From contig CAIXIX010000264.1 in assembly GCA_903919615.1 (NCBI GenBank), positions 1 to 33,114 on the forward strand: a DNA stretch of 33,114 nt, given 5' to 3'. Shown in pieces: positions 6,729-30,706 of the stretch (within the stretch, counting starts at the first letter, position 1; each line of letters opens with the position of its first letter). The notes under the pieces are model-generated. The model worked only from the letters and a program-made list of their open reading frames with translations. It was not told the DNA's origin and ran no database searches. A program made the position numbers and the translations under genes. This DNA is from an uncultured Chthonomonas sp. GTDB taxonomy: Bacteria; Armatimonadota; Chthonomonadetes; Chthonomonadales; Chthonomonadaceae.

Positions 6729-7484
6729 CTAAGGAGCTGGCGGAGTCTCCGGTTTAGGCGCAGTGCCTGGCAGTGCAGATTTGAACGTCTTGATATAGAT
6801 ATTCTTGAACTGCGCAACCGTATTTTCGCCATGGCACAGCTGGAATCCGAGGGGACCGCTCTCGTACCCTTCGGGATCGTCGCCCTCTCCTGTCTTAACG
6901 CCGTTTAGGAACACTACGTAGTGGTGTCCGATCATTCGGAAGTAGTAGTGGTTCCAGTCTTCTCGATGCAGGATCTTTTCCGCCTGGTCGGCAGGAAAAT
7001 CGAGGATCTTCTTCTGGCGATGGTGTTCGTCCCATAGGCAGCCCCAATAGCCGTCTCCCATATCCACCTGGTAACCCGGGACATCGTCAAAGGATTTTGG
7101 ATGAATCCGGCAGCAGACTCCGCTGTTATATCCCTTCATCTTGAAATCGATGTGCATGGCAAAGTCAGAGTAGTCCTTCGCGGAAAACATGTAGTGGTGG
7201 TGCGGGGTGCTTTTGCCTTTATCGCCCACTATTGCGCCATCCGATACCTTCCAGTAGCCTTCTTCGCCAATCCAGCCCTTTAGTGATTTGCCATCAAACA
7301 AGGATTTCCAGCCCTTCGCGGTTGGTTTCCCATCGAGCAGCTTCCCGTCGTCATCATCCCCGGCCTGAATCTGCCCTTGTGGAAGTGAGGGAAGCGCCGA
7401 ACCTGATGTGCTCTGACAAAGCGCCGGGGTTGCGAGCGCCATCACAATGGCTACTGCACCAATATGAAAGTGGAAACGTGTCAT
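6729..7484 (-). CDS. Secreted DUF1080 (3-keto-disaccharide hydrolase-type) protein
   Basis: The start at 7484 has AGGAG 5 nt upstream and gives a signal peptide ending near PALCQ. After a short acidic linker, the single DUF1080 (PF06439) domain begins with GWKSLFDGKSLKGW and contains YWKVSDGAIVG, FAMHIDFKMKGYNSGVCCRI, PGYQVDMGDGYWG and the closing GPLGFQL..VAQFKNIYIKTF. The fold is a concanavalin-like jelly roll; family members bind or cleave sugars, and some hydrolyse 3-keto-glycosides. The C-terminus is Pro-rich. At 251 residues the length is typical. It follows the phosphatase-like membrane gene by 49 nt on the same strand and is closed by an intrinsic terminator. Confidence 0.88.
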   Translation of the reverse strand: MTRFHFHIGAVAIVMALATPALCQSTSGSALPSLPQGQIQAGDDDDGKLLDGKPTAKGWKSLFDGKSLKGWIGEEGYWKVSDGAIVGDKGKSTPHHHYMFSAKDYSDFAMHIDFKMKGYNSGVCCRIHPKSFDDVPGYQVDMGDGYWGCLWDEHHRQKKILDFPADQAEKILHREDWNHYYFRMIGHHYVVFLNGVKTGEGDDPEGYESGPLGFQLCHGENTVAQFKNIYIKTFKSALPGTAPKPETPPAP

Positions 7485-12539: not shown

Positions 12540-12660
12540 TCAGCGTTACACTCCGGCCACCATCTGTAAAGTATCTGACACTAAAATTGCGTTATTAGTA
12601 TACATCACGCTCCTGCAGCCCTTTGGCTATTACCTTCCTGAAACCGGCAATCTTCGCAGA

Positions 12661-14712
12661 TCATGGTTTCGCGACGGTGACGCAATCGAGCCCGAAATAG
12701 TATCTCGCGCCTTTGGACAGCGGATTGGCGCCAACAACCTGTGCATGAAGGATGAATTTACCGTTTATTGGAGTGTGCACGCCAAGATCAAACTGAGCCG
12801 GCCGAACGTCTGGTGCATACCCGTCAAACTGCCCAGCAACAGCCTCCGAGTTCACTCGGAAACTGAGGGTTGCGAAATCGGAAGCCTGTGTTGCGAATAG
12901 AACCAGATGCTGTGGCACAGAATCCATAGTGGGCCACTCAAGGGTGATGCTGTCTTCAACGCGTTCAGCTTTTCCGAGCAGGTGTTTTCCACCGCTCCAT
13001 CGATCTGCGCCAAACGGCTCCATATCCTGTTCTCCGACAAAGAACTTCCCATTCTGAGAAACCAGTTTCATTGTTTCGCATTCGATGGCGCCCTGACGAT
13101 GGTGAGGTTCAGTGAGAGCGGCCGCTTCTGCTAGCGTCGGTATTTTTAGTGTGGCCGCTACGGGCTGCTCTTTAACGCTGCACGAAACTCCAGGAAGGGC
13201 GTACCAGTAGGTTGTTGCTGCGTAAGTTAGCGCCATCGGCTTCCACGAGATAAGCTCGAAGTTAAACTTGAGCGTTCTTCTAAATGGTATCGCGTCGAGG
13301 CTTCGCGTCCGAATCAACGTATTATGACCTTGTGTCATTGGCTGGTCGATGCGTGGTTCCCCGGTGAACGGCGTTTGATGAGCAGGTTGTGGAGCGTAAG
13401 AAAAACTGTAGTAGTCTTCCGTGCCTGTACCGAGGTGTGATGGAAAGGTTTCGTCATCGATCCAGATCTTCTCGTTGCCCTCTCCATACCATGTGGCCAA
13501 TGGATTGAATAGCGCCAGAGTGTCACCAACATACACGCCTCTGCCACTAAGTGTGACGAAGTTCCATTCTCGCGGTGGCTCCGTTTGCAGCCCGGATTCG
13601 TAGTGCCATACGGCATGAAAGTGCATTGAACGATCGTTCCATTGCCATCGGGCAGTCTGCGTTTGAAGGCTGAAATCCACTGCTGTAACGCCGAGATTGA
13701 TGATCGAAATTCTTGCTGATGATTTATAGGGCATCACCCAACTGCTGGTCATAATACCGGTTTCATCGACGCTTGAATCGTAGTTCCTTACGCGATTTAA
13801 GCCAACTCCGCTTCCAAAGAAATCGCTGACAGGACACCAGATCGTCGGCTCGCCATCACACTCCATCTTCAGGATCAGTGACCGAAGCGCCAAATCCATA
13901 GCTACGTGCTGAGCTTGGGGGATTGTTAGCCGTATAGACTGAACTGCCGCAGGGCCTTGCGGCAGCTTCAGAGCGAGTGTGGCGCCTGGCCGGATCGGCC
14001 CACCCAATTGTTCTGGCTGTGAACTTGAAAATCGTACAGGATATAATAAATGGTGGTTCACTCTGGCAATAAGCGGCCGAAGTGGCTCCAGATCGGATAT
14101 CTGAAAAGTCTTGACCGGTGTATCGCCATCGTAGCATCTGTAGTTGATCTGGTAGTAGCGTGAACTCTGGCCAGACTCCTCCCACGTCACCTTGCAGTGC
14201 CTCGCGTAGGGTATGGGAAGATAGAGGGTGTTCCCGCCATTGCTATCCGGGTGGTAGCCCGGATGTGGCTGAAGCAGCGGCGGAGCGATTGCCAGCTTGC
14301 CGCTCACAAGGTCGTATGCAGGATATGTGATAGATGCTGTGGTCGCGTAATCCAAGTAGATACGCAGGACGCCCTTCTTATTTCGATCGGTTGTGAGCCA
14401 AAAGCGTACGATGGCGCCAGGACCATCGGCGTCCATCATTACCTTTTCGTCATGGCCGTCGCGGCTTTCTGTCCGAATGAACTGGTTCTGATCGTTGTTG
14501 GCGAACCAACCCGGTTTGTCTGGGGAGATTCTTGTGCGGTCGTAGCTGCTAGCCTCACGCGAACTGTAGGGAAATCGAGGCCATTTTGCCAGGGATGTGC
14601 GATCCGTCATCTCTTCCAACAGAGAACGCGTGGTAACTTGAGCACAGACTTGGTTGGAGACGGCCAAGCAGACGCCCAGCAGCAGCGCCATTGCGACATT
14701 TCTGGTATTCAT
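12661..14712 (-). CDS. Secreted DUF2961/GH172 family glycoside hydrolase
   Basis: The 683-residue protein starts with a clear signal peptide (MNTRNVAMALLLGVCLAVSNQVCAQ). The N-terminal two thirds match DUF2961 (PF11175), now glycoside hydrolase family 172: GWFANNDQNQFIRTE, GPGAIVRFWLT, RIYLDYATTASITYPAYDL, and the hallmark GTGTEDYYSFSY around Glu432. Characterised GH172 enzymes act on alpha-D-fructofuranosides or D-arabinofuranosides and form jelly-roll oligomers. The last 150 residues (from GAIECETMKLVS) look like a separate beta-sandwich, possibly carbohydrate-binding. It sits 121 nt upstream of alaS on the same strand, probably by chance rather than function. Substrate is not established. 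Confidence 0.88.
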   Translation of the reverse strand: MNTRNVAMALLLGVCLAVSNQVCAQVTTRSLLEEMTDRTSLAKWPRFPYSSREASSYDRTRISPDKPGWFANNDQNQFIRTESRDGHDEKVMMDADGPGAIVRFWLTTDRNKKGVLRIYLDYATTASITYPAYDLVSGKLAIAPPLLQPHPGYHPDSNGGNTLYLPIPYARHCKVTWEESGQSSRYYQINYRCYDGDTPVKTFQISDLEPLRPLIARVNHHLLYPVRFSSSQPEQLGGPIRPGATLALKLPQGPAAVQSIRLTIPQAQHVAMDLALRSLILKMECDGEPTIWCPVSDFFGSGVGLNRVRNYDSSVDETGIMTSSWVMPYKSSARISIINLGVTAVDFSLQTQTARWQWNDRSMHFHAVWHYESGLQTEPPREWNFVTLSGRGVYVGDTLALFNPLATWYGEGNEKIWIDDETFPSHLGTGTEDYYSFSYAPQPAHQTPFTGEPRIDQPMTQGHNTLIRTRSLDAIPFRRTLKFNFELISWKPMALTYAATTYWYALPGVSCSVKEQPVAATLKIPTLAEAAALTEPHHRQGAIECETMKLVSQNGKFFVGEQDMEPFGADRWSGGKHLLGKAERVEDSITLEWPTMDSVPQHLVLFATQASDFATLSFRVNSEAVAGQFDGYAPDVRPAQFDLGVHTPINGKFILHAQVVGANPLSKGARYYFGLDCVTVAKP

Positions 14713-22666: not shown

Positions 22667-22714
22667 ACTATCTCACTAACTTACTATCTCACTCACTTAC
22701 TTACTTAGTGACTT
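22667..22714. repeat. Short 16-bp tandem repeat between convergent genes
   Basis: ACTATCTCACTAACTT (22667-22682) is repeated with one change at 22683-22698 and more loosely at 22699-22714, where it reaches the stop codon of the GH127 gene. It is an ACTT/ACTC microsatellite-like tract, probably from replication slippage. Confidence 0.7.
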
Positions 22715-24581
22715 ATCGCCCACTGGCCGTTCGGAATGCCTTGAAGTAGGTGGCAGTACGACGTCGTCGTAGTTCTGCGAACGGACGGAAGATAAGGTCG
22801 TGAGGGTGCACTGCATTCACGGATCGAAACGCGAGCGTCTCACCGTCCAACCGTTTTAACCAATCGTCGATGGGGCGTTTGTCTAGCGTCAATACGGGGA
22901 TCGGAGGGGACGGCATATCGTTTGGGACTGCGGTGGAGATTGGATCGCCCATGTCGCCACTGAGTACTAATGGGCCGTATGCAAGTGATACAACGCCTGC
23001 GTTTCCGGGTGCAGGTTCAATTCGCAATCCCATGCCGAACTGAATATCCAGATGGTCGCCGGCTCTCCAGAGGTGCGTTATCGTGATAAATCCGTCTGAG
23101 TTGACCGTGTAGTCCTTCAGCTTGCCGCTCAGTTTGATCGTGGGTTTACCGGTAGACCATGCTGGCATTCGAATGCTGATCGCGGCTTTATGCTCTGAGC
23201 CGGATAACACGCGGATGACAACGGCGCCATTCTGTGGAAACTGCGTTTCCTGTCGCAGCTTCAGGCCCGCTTCTGTCCAATCAACCTCGGAAGGCGCGAA
23301 CAGATTGACCCACAGGTGATCGTCAAGGTGTTTGTAGTAGATGGCATTTGCGTGCAAAAGATGGTTTTCCATCCCTGTCGCGACACAGCACCAGAAAGAG
23401 TCGAACGGAGTGCAGTACTTTCTGACCAAGCCGGATTTAAGCGGGACGAAATAGGTCATCATTCCTGTTTCTTGATACTGGGATCCCAGAATATGGTTAT
23501 ACTGGGCCTTCTCGTACCAGTCTCCGTATTCTGCCCGCGGCCCCCAGGTGAAGAGCCGCCTTGTGAGCTTTTGCATGTTGTAGGTGCAGCAGGTTTCGCA
23601 GTCGTCCTCTGCGAGATCCTCCGCGTACCTATCTGCTAATCCGAAGAACTCGCTTTTGCTCGTTCCGCCGATGGCATAGGTATGGTGACGAACGACCGTG
23701 CTCCAGAAGTTTTCCGCGATTGCCCTTTCGACTGGATCTCCAGTTCGTTCATAGATCCGCGCCTCTCCGATGATTTTGGGGATCTGGGTATTTGCATGCA
23801 GGCCAGCCAAATTATCGTTGCGTGCTGCAAGCGGATCACAAACCTTATTATGATGAAAGCGCAGAGCCAGTTCCGCATATTTAGGATTTTCGGTCTGCTC
23901 CGTTAGCTCCACAAGCGCATCATTGATGCCTCCGAACTCAGCCTCAAGCATTGTTTGCCATTGTTCAGCGCTCAAGTTCCGGGTAACATTGCATGCCCAG
24001 TCTCCGAGTTTTATGGCAATTTGCAGCGCTTTCTGGTTTCGACAGAGCCTGTGCGCATCCATCAGGCCGGTGAGAATTTTGTGAACGCGGTACCAGGTCG
24101 CGATACCATTGAGGAAGGGGTTGTCGACCTTAATGTGGCCCTGAGATATCTGAGCCCAGGCCTCGGGCAGTCTGGCATCGTAGAATAGAGCGCCATCTTC
24201 ACGCCTGTTCTGGCAAGTCTCCAGCTCATCAACGATGTGATCTGCTCGCTGTTTGAATCGCGGATCGTGGGTAATAGCCCACGCATCGCTTATTGCGGTA
24301 AGGTAGTGCCCCAGAACCTCTCCAGCATTGCCGTCGTTCCTGCTCTCCCACCCACCGTAAAATGGCGCTTTGGGAGGTAATCCAACAGCTCGAAGGTAGG
24401 GGTTGAGAAAGGCATCAGGGTTCAACTGCAACAGGTACCGAATATCGGCATCCTGAGCTTGTTTCAATGGGCCGTCTAGCAGGCGTACTTCATCGAGCTT
24501 AAAAGAGCTAGCAGGCAATATGGGTGTAGTGGGGATCGTGCAATGAAGCATTGCATGGACCAGTAGTAATAAAGAGATCAT
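22713..24581 (-). CDS. Secreted GH127 (DUF1680) beta-L-arabinofuranosidase-like enzyme
   Basis: The 622-residue protein opens with a short signal peptide, then the family start FKLDEVRLLDGPLKQAQDADIRYLL. The (alpha/alpha)6 barrel shows FYGGWESRNDGNAGEVLGHYLTA, EFGGINDALVELTEQT, LHANTQIPKIIGEARIYE and the zinc-thiol site: AEDDCETCCTYNMQKL (Cys328 and Cys331-332) and FWCCVATGMENH (Cys398-399). In characterised GH127, a Cys3-Glu zinc centre holds the catalytic cysteine that cleaves terminal beta-L-arabinofuranose. All the expected cysteines are present. The C-terminal third is beta-sandwich. It is convergent with the MFS transporter and, like GH172, points to use of furanose-rich plant or microbial glycans. 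Substrate is inferred from family only. Confidence 0.93.
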   Translation of the reverse strand: MISLLLLVHAMLHCTIPTTPILPASSFKLDEVRLLDGPLKQAQDADIRYLLQLNPDAFLNPYLRAVGLPPKAPFYGGWESRNDGNAGEVLGHYLTAISDAWAITHDPRFKQRADHIVDELETCQNRREDGALFYDARLPEAWAQISQGHIKVDNPFLNGIATWYRVHKILTGLMDAHRLCRNQKALQIAIKLGDWACNVTRNLSAEQWQTMLEAEFGGINDALVELTEQTENPKYAELALRFHHNKVCDPLAARNDNLAGLHANTQIPKIIGEARIYERTGDPVERAIAENFWSTVVRHHTYAIGGTSKSEFFGLADRYAEDLAEDDCETCCTYNMQKLTRRLFTWGPRAEYGDWYEKAQYNHILGSQYQETGMMTYFVPLKSGLVRKYCTPFDSFWCCVATGMENHLLHANAIYYKHLDDHLWVNLFAPSEVDWTEAGLKLRQETQFPQNGAVVIRVLSGSEHKAAISIRMPAWSTGKPTIKLSGKLKDYTVNSDGFITITHLWRAGDHLDIQFGMGLRIEPAPGNAGVVSLAYGPLVLSGDMGDPISTAVPNDMPSPPIPVLTLDKRPIDDWLKRLDGETLAFRSVNAVHPHDLIFRPFAELRRRRTATYFKAFRTASGR

Positions 24582-25347: not shown

Positions 25348-25432
25348 TGCGTGCTCATGATTGAAACCTATTGCTCCCTAGCGCGACTGAATAACCGTTT
25401 GTGGTTTCAACGCACAATTCAGGAGACGCAAC

Positions 25433-26569
25433 GTGCGAGGAAATAATCTACTTCTGAGCTTGTTCTGCGCAGTCGCGGCAATCCCATCGTTTGCATCAAC
25501 ACCTCCAAAGCTTCCGCGTCTGGATTGGACCCCACGTTCCGACTGGATTAACGTCAAGACCGACGTCACACCCGCAGCGGTTGGGGACGGCAAAGCGGAT
25601 GACACGGAGTCGCTGCAGAACGCGCTCGTGCTGTTAGGCGATGTCCCTGGTAAACGCACCACAGTCTACTTGCCTCCCGGTACCTACCGAATTTCGCGTA
25701 CGCTCGAGCTAAAACAGAAGGACGGCATCGCCATTATTGGCCATGGGCGCGACACGCGCGTGCTGTGGGATGGGCCTGGCGGCGAGGGCGACGAGTCGAG
25801 GATGTTCTGGAGCAACGGCTCACCTTGCAGTCGCTACATCGGAATCGTCTGGGATGGTGCAGGCAGAGCGAATACTGGCTTCGATCACGACTCACACAAT
25901 CTCTTCGAGACCGAGATCGATCATCAATGCGAAGCCTTCATTAACTGTCGGGGCTGTGGTTTAAGGATTGGCCACAACCAGTCGATCCCTGGGGCACAGG
26001 CAACGGCAGAGACAACCTACGACAATTGCCTCTTTTGCAACTGCGATCGTGGCGCCGCAGTACTGACCTTTAACGACTACAACCATACCTTCGCGGGCTG
26101 CGAATTTCGCGATTGTGGAACGGGAGTTTATGGTGGCAAGGGCTGCAACTTTTATGTGAGAGACAGTCACTTTGTTACGAGCCGCGTTACGGACGTGCTT
26201 TCGATGGCTGAACACGGCGTCTCGCTTAGACGGTGCACCTCTGTTGGGTCTCGAATGTTCTTCCAACAGAACTCGATTGCGACCGCCGTAGTCCAGGATT
26301 GCAGAGTGTCCGGCTGGACCAACCCTGACGGAGCTATTTCGCTCAACTACGGTCCCGTCATGGTGTTCGATTGCGCCTTTGAGCACGGTCCTGGCAGAGA
26401 CGCTGCGATCCGAACGGTTGACAGCCAGAAGCTGATCCTATCGAATAACCGTTATCCAGGCAGCAGCGCGCTGGTTAAGCGGTCTGGCACGCCGCCTGCC
26501 ATCGTGCCCGCTGGCAAGCTGACTGCAAGTCTGGTCTCCGCCGAAACGAGTTATCTTCGAGAAGTCTGA
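25433..26569 (+). CDS. Secreted pectate-lyase-type beta-helix protein, N-terminal part of a split gene
   Basis: GTG at 25433 has AGGAG 7 nt upstream. The product (378 residues) has a signal peptide cut near SFAS, then a right-handed beta-helix opening with the Pectate_lyase_3/GH28-related signature (INVKTDVTPAAVGDGKADDTESLQNAL, YLPPGTYRIS). Repeated turns follow: CRGCGLRIGHN, NCLFCNCDRGAAVLTF, CEFRDCGTGVYGG, FYVRDSHFV. It stops at a TGA (26567-26569), after which the same frame stays open with no intervening stop into the next beta-helix domain. It therefore looks like the first half of one two-domain secreted protein. Catalytic residues and substrate cannot be assigned; polysaccharide lyase or hydrolase activity is the family norm. 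Confidence 0.85.
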   Translation: MRGNNLLLSLFCAVAAIPSFASTPPKLPRLDWTPRSDWINVKTDVTPAAVGDGKADDTESLQNALVLLGDVPGKRTTVYLPPGTYRISRTLELKQKDGIAIIGHGRDTRVLWDGPGGEGDESRMFWSNGSPCSRYIGIVWDGAGRANTGFDHDSHNLFETEIDHQCEAFINCRGCGLRIGHNQSIPGAQATAETTYDNCLFCNCDRGAAVLTFNDYNHTFAGCEFRDCGTGVYGGKGCNFYVRDSHFVTSRVTDVLSMAEHGVSLRRCTSVGSRMFFQQNSIATAVVQDCRVSGWTNPDGAISLNYGPVMVFDCAFEHGPGRDAAIRTVDSQKLILSNNRYPGSSALVKRSGTPPAIVPAGKLTASLVSAETSYLREV

Positions 26570-26584
26570 CCGGCGGCCGGACGC

Positions 26585-27670
26585 GTGTTTGATGTGCGAA
26601 AAGACTTCGGTGCGAAGGGCGATGGCAATGCTGACGATACGGCGGCTTTACTGGCGGCCGTGGAGGCTGCACGACGGGCGGGGCACGGTGGGATCGCTTA
26701 TCTGCCTTCAGGGGACTATGCCGTCTCGAAAACAATCGAGATTACGGGTCGAGACTATAGCTTCGGCGGAAGTGGAATCCACTCTCGTATAATCTGGCGC
26801 GGTCCGAAGGATGGCGTAACGGTCCATGTGTCGGATCCATTCAATGTCTCGGTGGAGAACCTCAACATTGGTGAGGCGGGGGATCAGCCGAACAGTGCGG
26901 ATATTCTGCAGACAGGAACACTGCCTTCTAGAATCAACTATGAGCGCGTCTGGCTCTTCGGGATGTACCAGAAGCAGCCGGGCCGCAAAGGATTATTATG
27001 CCGTGATCTGCCCAGTGGAACGGCGATCGTTGGCAGGCATGTCACCGGAAATCTGCGCTTCAGCAACTGCGGCAAGGCATCTATCCTGTTCAATACCTCG
27101 TTTGAAGGCGCGATAGAGGTAGAGGGTAAACAGGACGGTCCGCGCGACGGGCTGCTTGGATTTATGACGCGGCTGGCGACCATCGAGAAGTTTGGGCTCT
27201 ACTTGCGGGACAGTCAGAATATCGTGATAAGCGATTACTATGTGGAACAGAGCGATCAGATGCTCAGCTTTGCAGGCAACCGCGGCGATGCGCCGGGAAG
27301 GGCAACCATCCAGATGGCGAAGAGCCATACCTACAAGGGGCCGGTGGTTGTGTCACAAGATTATGCGGGGCGCATTTCGCTGGGTCCAACGATGCCCTAT
27401 CCGGGCGGCGTTGCTGATGCCTTGTACAGTTTTCAGGGCAGTAACCCGATGGACCTCGTGTTTATGGGGTGCCAGGCATACGGACAGAAGCCGCGGTTCG
27501 AGTTCAGCCCCGCTATCCAGAAAGTGTTTTTGGAGAACTCGGGAGAAGGCATGGGACCAAATGAGATTCCTACAGGCGGACTCGGCGCTGTCGCCGGCGC
27601 TCTGGATGACCTTCGCCGCCTTGGCGAACTTGATTTGAAGCTAAACTATCCGGGAGTTCGGATGCACTGA
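26585..27670 (+). CDS. Second beta-helix domain, in frame behind a TGA (possible pseudogene or read-through product)
   Basis: This frame continues that of the preceding gene: TGA at 26567-26569, then five codons (PAAGR), then GTG at 26585. It has the canonical domain opening FDVRKDFGAKGDGNADDTAALLAAVEAA and GGIAYLPSGDYAVSKTIEI, then beta-helix turns to LDLKLNYPGVRMH. As an independent gene it would lack a signal peptide, and no Shine-Dalgarno site precedes the GTG. Tandem beta-helix domains are common in this superfamily, so the simplest reading is one former protein of about 745 residues broken by a nonsense mutation. Read-through of the leaky TGA-C context, or a sequencing error, are alternatives. 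The rest of the frame is intact, so any break is recent. Confidence 0.7.
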   Translation: MFDVRKDFGAKGDGNADDTAALLAAVEAARRAGHGGIAYLPSGDYAVSKTIEITGRDYSFGGSGIHSRIIWRGPKDGVTVHVSDPFNVSVENLNIGEAGDQPNSADILQTGTLPSRINYERVWLFGMYQKQPGRKGLLCRDLPSGTAIVGRHVTGNLRFSNCGKASILFNTSFEGAIEVEGKQDGPRDGLLGFMTRLATIEKFGLYLRDSQNIVISDYYVEQSDQMLSFAGNRGDAPGRATIQMAKSHTYKGPVVVSQDYAGRISLGPTMPYPGGVADALYSFQGSNPMDLVFMGCQAYGQKPRFEFSPAIQKVFLENSGEGMGPNEIPTGGLGAVAGALDDLRRLGELDLKLNYPGVRMH

Positions 27671-27689
27671 CAGCTTGTTCGATTTTGGC

Positions 27690-27718
27690 TTGACGAGGCC
27701 GCTAAACCGGAGTATACT
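27690..27718 (+). promoter_or_regulatory. Promoter of tRNA-Ala
   Basis: TTGACG (27690-27695), a 17-nt spacer and TATACT (27713-27718) precede the tRNA by 14 nt. Transcription should start near 27725. Confidence 0.85.
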
Positions 27719-27732
27719 TCTGTCGTTTGTTG

Positions 27733-27805
27733 GGGGCTGTGGCTCAGTTGGGAGAGCGCCTCGTTCGCATCGAGGAGGTCAGGGGTTCGAATCCCCTCAG
27801 CTCCA
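27733..27805 (+). tRNA. tRNA-Ala (anticodon CGC)
   Basis: The 73-nt sequence folds into a full cloverleaf. Acceptor GGGGCTG pairs with CAGCTCC including a G3-U70 wobble, the main identity element for alanyl-tRNA synthetase. The D-stem is GCTC/GAGC. The anticodon stem CCTCG/CGAGG encloses loop TTCGCAT with CGC at 27766-27768, and the T-arm is AGGGG-TTCGAAT-CCCCT. The discriminator is A and CCA is not encoded. It decodes GCG alanine codons. Confidence 0.97.
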
Positions 27806-30426: not shown

Positions 30427-30706
30427 TCAGTCGCTTGCTGAGATGCAGTGGCCGCCGCCGCCGTTTGCATAGTAGGGCACCTCGGCGCCGAGGGAGCGAC
30501 ATGCCAGAGATATCCGTCCGGTTGCACGACGAGCCATCGATAGATGGAGAAGGGTCTCCGGATGGGTGGTTGTGAGCCAGGATGACTGAGGATGCATTAC
30601 AAAGAATTGCGGGCTTGAAGACCTCACGCGGATGCACGAGAGAGGATTCCAGTATGTGAACGGCTATTGCGCATTTCAGAACACGATTTATAGCCCCTAT
30701 GGGTCC
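30427..30706 (-). pseudogene. radC: Truncated, frameshifted radC (JAB/MPN domain) remnant
   Basis: On the minus strand, [29 protein letters not shown] leads into [18 protein letters not shown], the core of RadC with its HxH metal site. About residue SID (near 30536) the RadC-like pattern leaves this frame. A neighbouring frame continues with [18 protein letters not shown], which resembles the family's C-terminus. The JAMM aspartate expected three residues after the serine is displaced. The N-terminal half is missing because the higA-type gene ends at 30712. RadC-like genes are frequent in mobile and anti-restriction regions, which fits the surroundings. Confidence 0.75.

Follow-up and report, generated by a model that had tools for sequence, protein, structure and literature searches.

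The locus at positions 25433 to 27670 raises the question of whether a single in-frame TGA marks a damaged gene, two separate genes or a stop codon that the ribosome passes over. It lies on the forward strand of the window, i.e., the whole stretch of 33,114 nucleotides that was analysed, which corresponds to contig C264 of G000, a draft genome of 7.4 Mb in 614 contigs from an uncultured Armatimonadota-type bacterium. Re-reading confirmed that one frame extends from a GTG at 25433 to a terminal TGA at 27668–27670 and that its sole break is the TGA at 26567–26569, codon 379 of 745, as the sequence-only reading had claimed. This codon, read directly and placed in the orthologue alignment, is followed by a C. 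The ribosome-binding site AGGAG (25421–25425, forward strand, read directly) precedes the GTG by 7 nt. The upstream open frame (25433–26569, forward strand; 378 aa) encodes a signal peptide and a first beta-helix domain. The signal peptide covers residues 1–22 (MRGNNLLLSLFCAVAAIPSFAS; 25433–25498, forward strand) and was recognised by inspection from its charged N-terminus, its hydrophobic core and the small residues at the cut. The downstream open frame (26570–27670, forward strand) consists of 366 codons and a TGA and encodes a second beta-helix domain. A stop-free run of 366 codons 3' of the TGA has a chance probability of about 3e-7 at the local composition, and the codon usage of this run is coding-like.

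Each half is matched separately by PF12708 (Pect-lyase_RHGA_epim), with 7.8e-14 and 52.4 bits for the first and 1.9e-11 and 44.6 bits for the second, both above the gathering cut-off of 27 bits; this family is broad and membership of it indicates no substrate. The two halves also show a weak mutual resemblance (41% over 37 aa) which, joined to the PF12708 matches, bears out the earlier description of a tandem beta-helix protein. When the read-through protein was modelled with AlphaFold2 (mean pLDDT 86, pTM 0.89), two right-handed beta-helices were obtained. Since the last strand of domain 1 (residues 356–358) ends at 358 and the first strand of domain 2 (385–387) starts at 385, the TGA sits in the 26-residue linker joining both domains (residues 359–384 from the AlphaFold2 secondary structure; 26507–26584, forward strand). 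The break thus falls at a domain boundary, in agreement with what had been proposed from the letters alone.

The best whole-length structural relatives of the modelled protein are the GH55 enzymes, i.e., Lam55A from Phanerochaete chrysosporium (3eqn), the Chaetomium enzyme (5m5z), MnLam55A (8jhh) and SacteLam55A (4pew). Like the model, they are secreted as a single chain of about 750 residues in which a linker connects two tandem right-handed beta-helices. The superposition of the model on 3eqn (Z 21.3, 3.4 Å, 514 residues) spans residues 29–723 and includes both domains. However, identity to the full-length fungal GH55 structures is just 13–16%. Similarity to the GH55 sequence profile is found mostly at the start of each helix, and it pairs domain 1 of the window protein with GH55 domain 2 and vice versa. 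In GH55, the linker joins both helices and the active site is located at their interface; the catalytic set includes a general acid Glu with a Tyr at +3 in the C-terminal domain, a Glu-His pair and a Ser/Gln relay (PMC10637969). When compared by residue pattern, E605 is the only near-invariant Glu of domain 2 and has no Tyr at +3, and a conserved Glu-His pair (260–261) is located in domain 1. The model points to a secreted two-domain protein that would be GH55-laminarinase-like in fold. As the GH55 catalytic residues were not located in it, its membership of GH55 is putative. In contrast to GH55, the window copy carries a TGA between its two helices.

Whole-genome and collection searches led to a set of 43 non-redundant full-length orthologues, about 32–50% identical, from Armatimonadota, Planctomycetota, Verrucomicrobiota and Lentisphaerota. 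In each of them, one frame stays open through both domains. No stop at the linker and no second gene of its own at the junction was seen in any of the 43, the conservation of the stop being judged here against relatives no closer than about 50% identity. In the same way, two separate genes, each with its own start and signal peptide, an arrangement that would have spoken against an interrupted gene, were not found among them. Stops were flagged inside several orthologue matches and, when checked, turned out to be natural terminal stops. The wider family, with more than 40 intact tandem beta-helix proteins across four phyla and no characterised member found, would be worth testing in carbohydrate-enzyme assays.

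The ancestral gene was one intact frame. The best explanation of the locus, with a probability of roughly 0.85, is that this otherwise intact gene either underwent a nonsense mutation recently or owes the TGA to an assembly error at a single base, the figure being a joint one for both. The ancestral single frame of a secreted tandem beta-helix protein would have been interrupted in the linker by a single nonsense codon. If real, the change would be a recent mutation, giving a young pseudogene or a strain variant; alternatively, it would be a single-base error of the draft assembly. Should the stop be real, ribosomes would mainly make the exported first domain and the second domain would be lost, except through basal leakage at UGA, so that the gene has probably lost its function. 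For annotation, this means that both called ORFs belong in one interrupted-gene record and not in two genes.

The residues found in the orthologues at the TGA column are V in 19, A in 15, Q, W and I in two each, and P, R and S in one each, with no Cys. The sequence-only reading had offered a single change from TGG or CGA as one explanation of the stop. The nonsense mutation itself agrees with the 43 of 43 uninterrupted orthologues, whereas an origin from Trp or Arg finds no support in a column consisting mostly of Val and Ala, in which Trp is seen twice and Arg once.

Isolated lesions appear ordinary in this family because several draft-MAG orthologues (L058, L062/L096, L066 and L074) are also broken by lone frameshifts, with the remainder intact; none of them has two intact genes. 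In the Verrucomicrobia orthologue L074, frameshifts at about 6980–7130 fall in the last part of domain 1 and close to the corresponding linker, and the second domain is intact. Nonsense-interrupted genes and young pseudogenes of draft bacterial genomes likewise show one stop, an otherwise intact frame and uninterrupted orthologues. Unlike such pseudogenes in general, the window copy has its stop in an inter-domain linker. This counts to some extent against the best explanation, as the linker makes up 26 of the 745 residues (about 3.5%) and a stop there is somewhat better than a random one for leaving a foldable first domain. The gene itself can be regarded as accessory because only one of 17 genomes of its own family, G000, carries it. 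The search thus yielded no relative close enough to estimate dN/dS. Relatives of the neighbouring glycosidase-like gene (22713–24581) in the same-genus genome G001 are only about 41% identical.

The downstream half shows no decay. All 12 of its near-invariant polar or aromatic residues are retained and, in a tree of 44 sequences, the terminal branch of the window copy has a length of 0.655 when built from the upstream half and of 0.697 when built from the downstream one. Once normalised, the downstream/upstream branch ratio is 1.10, within a range of 0.26–1.56 over the 44 sequences. The conserved residues being kept and the branch length being ordinary, either the stop would be young or the living population would lack it, or translation would still reach the downstream part. 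The probability that simulated neutral decay leaves a 366-codon frame stop-free is about 0.18 when divergence is 5% and about 0.03–0.04 when it is 10%; these values count stops alone and become much lower when indels are added. As neutral decay seldom leaves such a frame intact, the lesion is probably recent. Departures at 90%-conserved columns are seen at 7 of 53 positions downstream, all of them conservative, versus 2 of 66 upstream. At the sequence level, these counts are suggestive at most of some relaxation of the downstream half, and several intact orthologues equal or exceed them.

The intact and unrelaxed state of the downstream half would also be expected if the stop were read through. 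According to this alternative, programmed or tolerated read-through of a leaky UGA-C in the linker would give a short exported N-domain together with a little full-length protein, and the inter-domain position suits two such products. The window copy shares with cases of bacterial UGA read-through an in-frame UGA-C and an open frame beyond it, and differs from them by an unconserved stop and by the absence of a stimulatory structure. UGA is the leakiest stop codon in E. coli and is mostly read as Trp (PMC11126739), a residue present at the column in the two orthologues mentioned above. Since UGA is leaky, basal read-through is expected at any such codon and does not thereby become programmed; the leakage would here probably be incidental.

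The view that a TGA followed by C is the leakiest context needs to be qualified for this genome, in which TGAC is commonplace. Of 301 long ORFs sampled over 647 kb of the assembly, TGA terminates 103, including 25 with TGAC. A reassignment of TGA was considered and is ruled out by its use as terminator in these 103 ORFs. Furthermore, no SECIS-like or stimulatory RNA fold was detected after the TGA: the segment 26560–26640 has a z of +0.97, and an equally good or better fold was obtained for 170 of 200 shuffles. The N-domain alone was not found among the homologues, the close matches in the phylum being two-domain frames, contig ends or frameshifts. By analogy with GH55, whose active site is formed where both domains meet, the first domain alone would not have the whole site, and a short N-domain form would have no evident activity. 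Joined to the lack of any stop at the linker in the 43 orthologues, these results provide no positive evidence for the short and long secreted forms proposed by the sequence-only reading, and read-through as a programmed or tolerated process seems unlikely. The more specific proposal that a lineage-specific leaky UGA serves to secrete a lone N-domain, for instance as a glycan-binding decoy or carrier, along with a little two-domain GH55-like enzyme, appears very unlikely. If read-through were nevertheless true, it would be an unusual bacterial case of two secreted isoforms obtained by leaky termination.

The insertion of selenocysteine at the TGA had to be considered because the genome encodes both SelA (497 bits; G000:C569:1270-2634) and SelB (372 bits; G000:C275:13913-15805), each above the curated cut-off. 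The presence of these two proteins indicates that the lineage may make selenoproteins. This alternative was weighed seriously and then rejected on the column, the fold and the tRNA. Cys occurs at the column in none of the 43 orthologues, most shuffles of the RNA that follows the TGA fold better than it does, and no tRNA-Sec was found above the Rfam cut-off in the 614-contig genome, where the best matches are ordinary Ser, Leu, Arg and Tyr tRNAs. Moreover, the site belongs to a variable linker and not to an active site. A selenoprotein at this locus is thus extremely improbable.

An intact downstream frame could also result from gene fission, the second half having become a gene of its own through re-initiation at the first in-frame start after the TGA. 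This start is a GTG (26585–26587, forward strand) located 15 nt past the TGA, with a weak GGCGG (26572–26576, forward strand) 8 nt 5' of it. The earlier statement that the downstream half has no ribosome site should therefore be corrected, this GTG being a poor second start and not an absent one. However, the product would be devoid of a signal peptide, unlike its exported partner domain, and no orthologue has two intact separate genes, which makes fission highly unlikely.

How frequently such interruptions occur elsewhere in the assembly was assessed in the same 647 kb sample, which contains 14 same-frame coding pairs, part of them classified with Pfam and the rest by eye. No second gene cut by a lone stop was recognised among these 14 pairs. 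The Pfam-tested pairs mostly have unrelated domains on each side, and further pairs, judged by eye, consist of normal adjacent genes with a start of their own (msrA, truB and rpsK-like). Single-base errors look rare here because none of the 14 pairs is another stop-cut gene, and this counts against the best explanation. Lone nonsense codons are uncommon in the assembly, yet one case calls for no special explanation.

Other kinds of gene remnants are present in this genome. For example, in one of the 14 pairs, at about 12630–13020 on the reverse strand of L155 (G000:C445), the C-terminal domain of S-adenosylmethionine synthetase (PF02773), a metK remnant, shares its reading frame with an unrelated sequence to which it is joined on the upstream side. 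The N-terminal and central domains of this metK were not seen nearby in any frame, which points to a remnant or a rearrangement. On the contig of the interrupted gene, a tmRNA called by ARAGORN at 27584–27805 (forward strand) is a false positive that overlaps the 3' end of the gene and a tRNA-Ala (CGC), Rfam supporting the tRNA only. This tRNA-Ala (27733–27805, forward strand) lies just 3' of the gene and is separate from it. The same contig carries a further gene remnant at 30440–30640 on the reverse strand, a RadC-like fragment, identified by eye, whose sequence becomes degenerate beyond about 55 residues.
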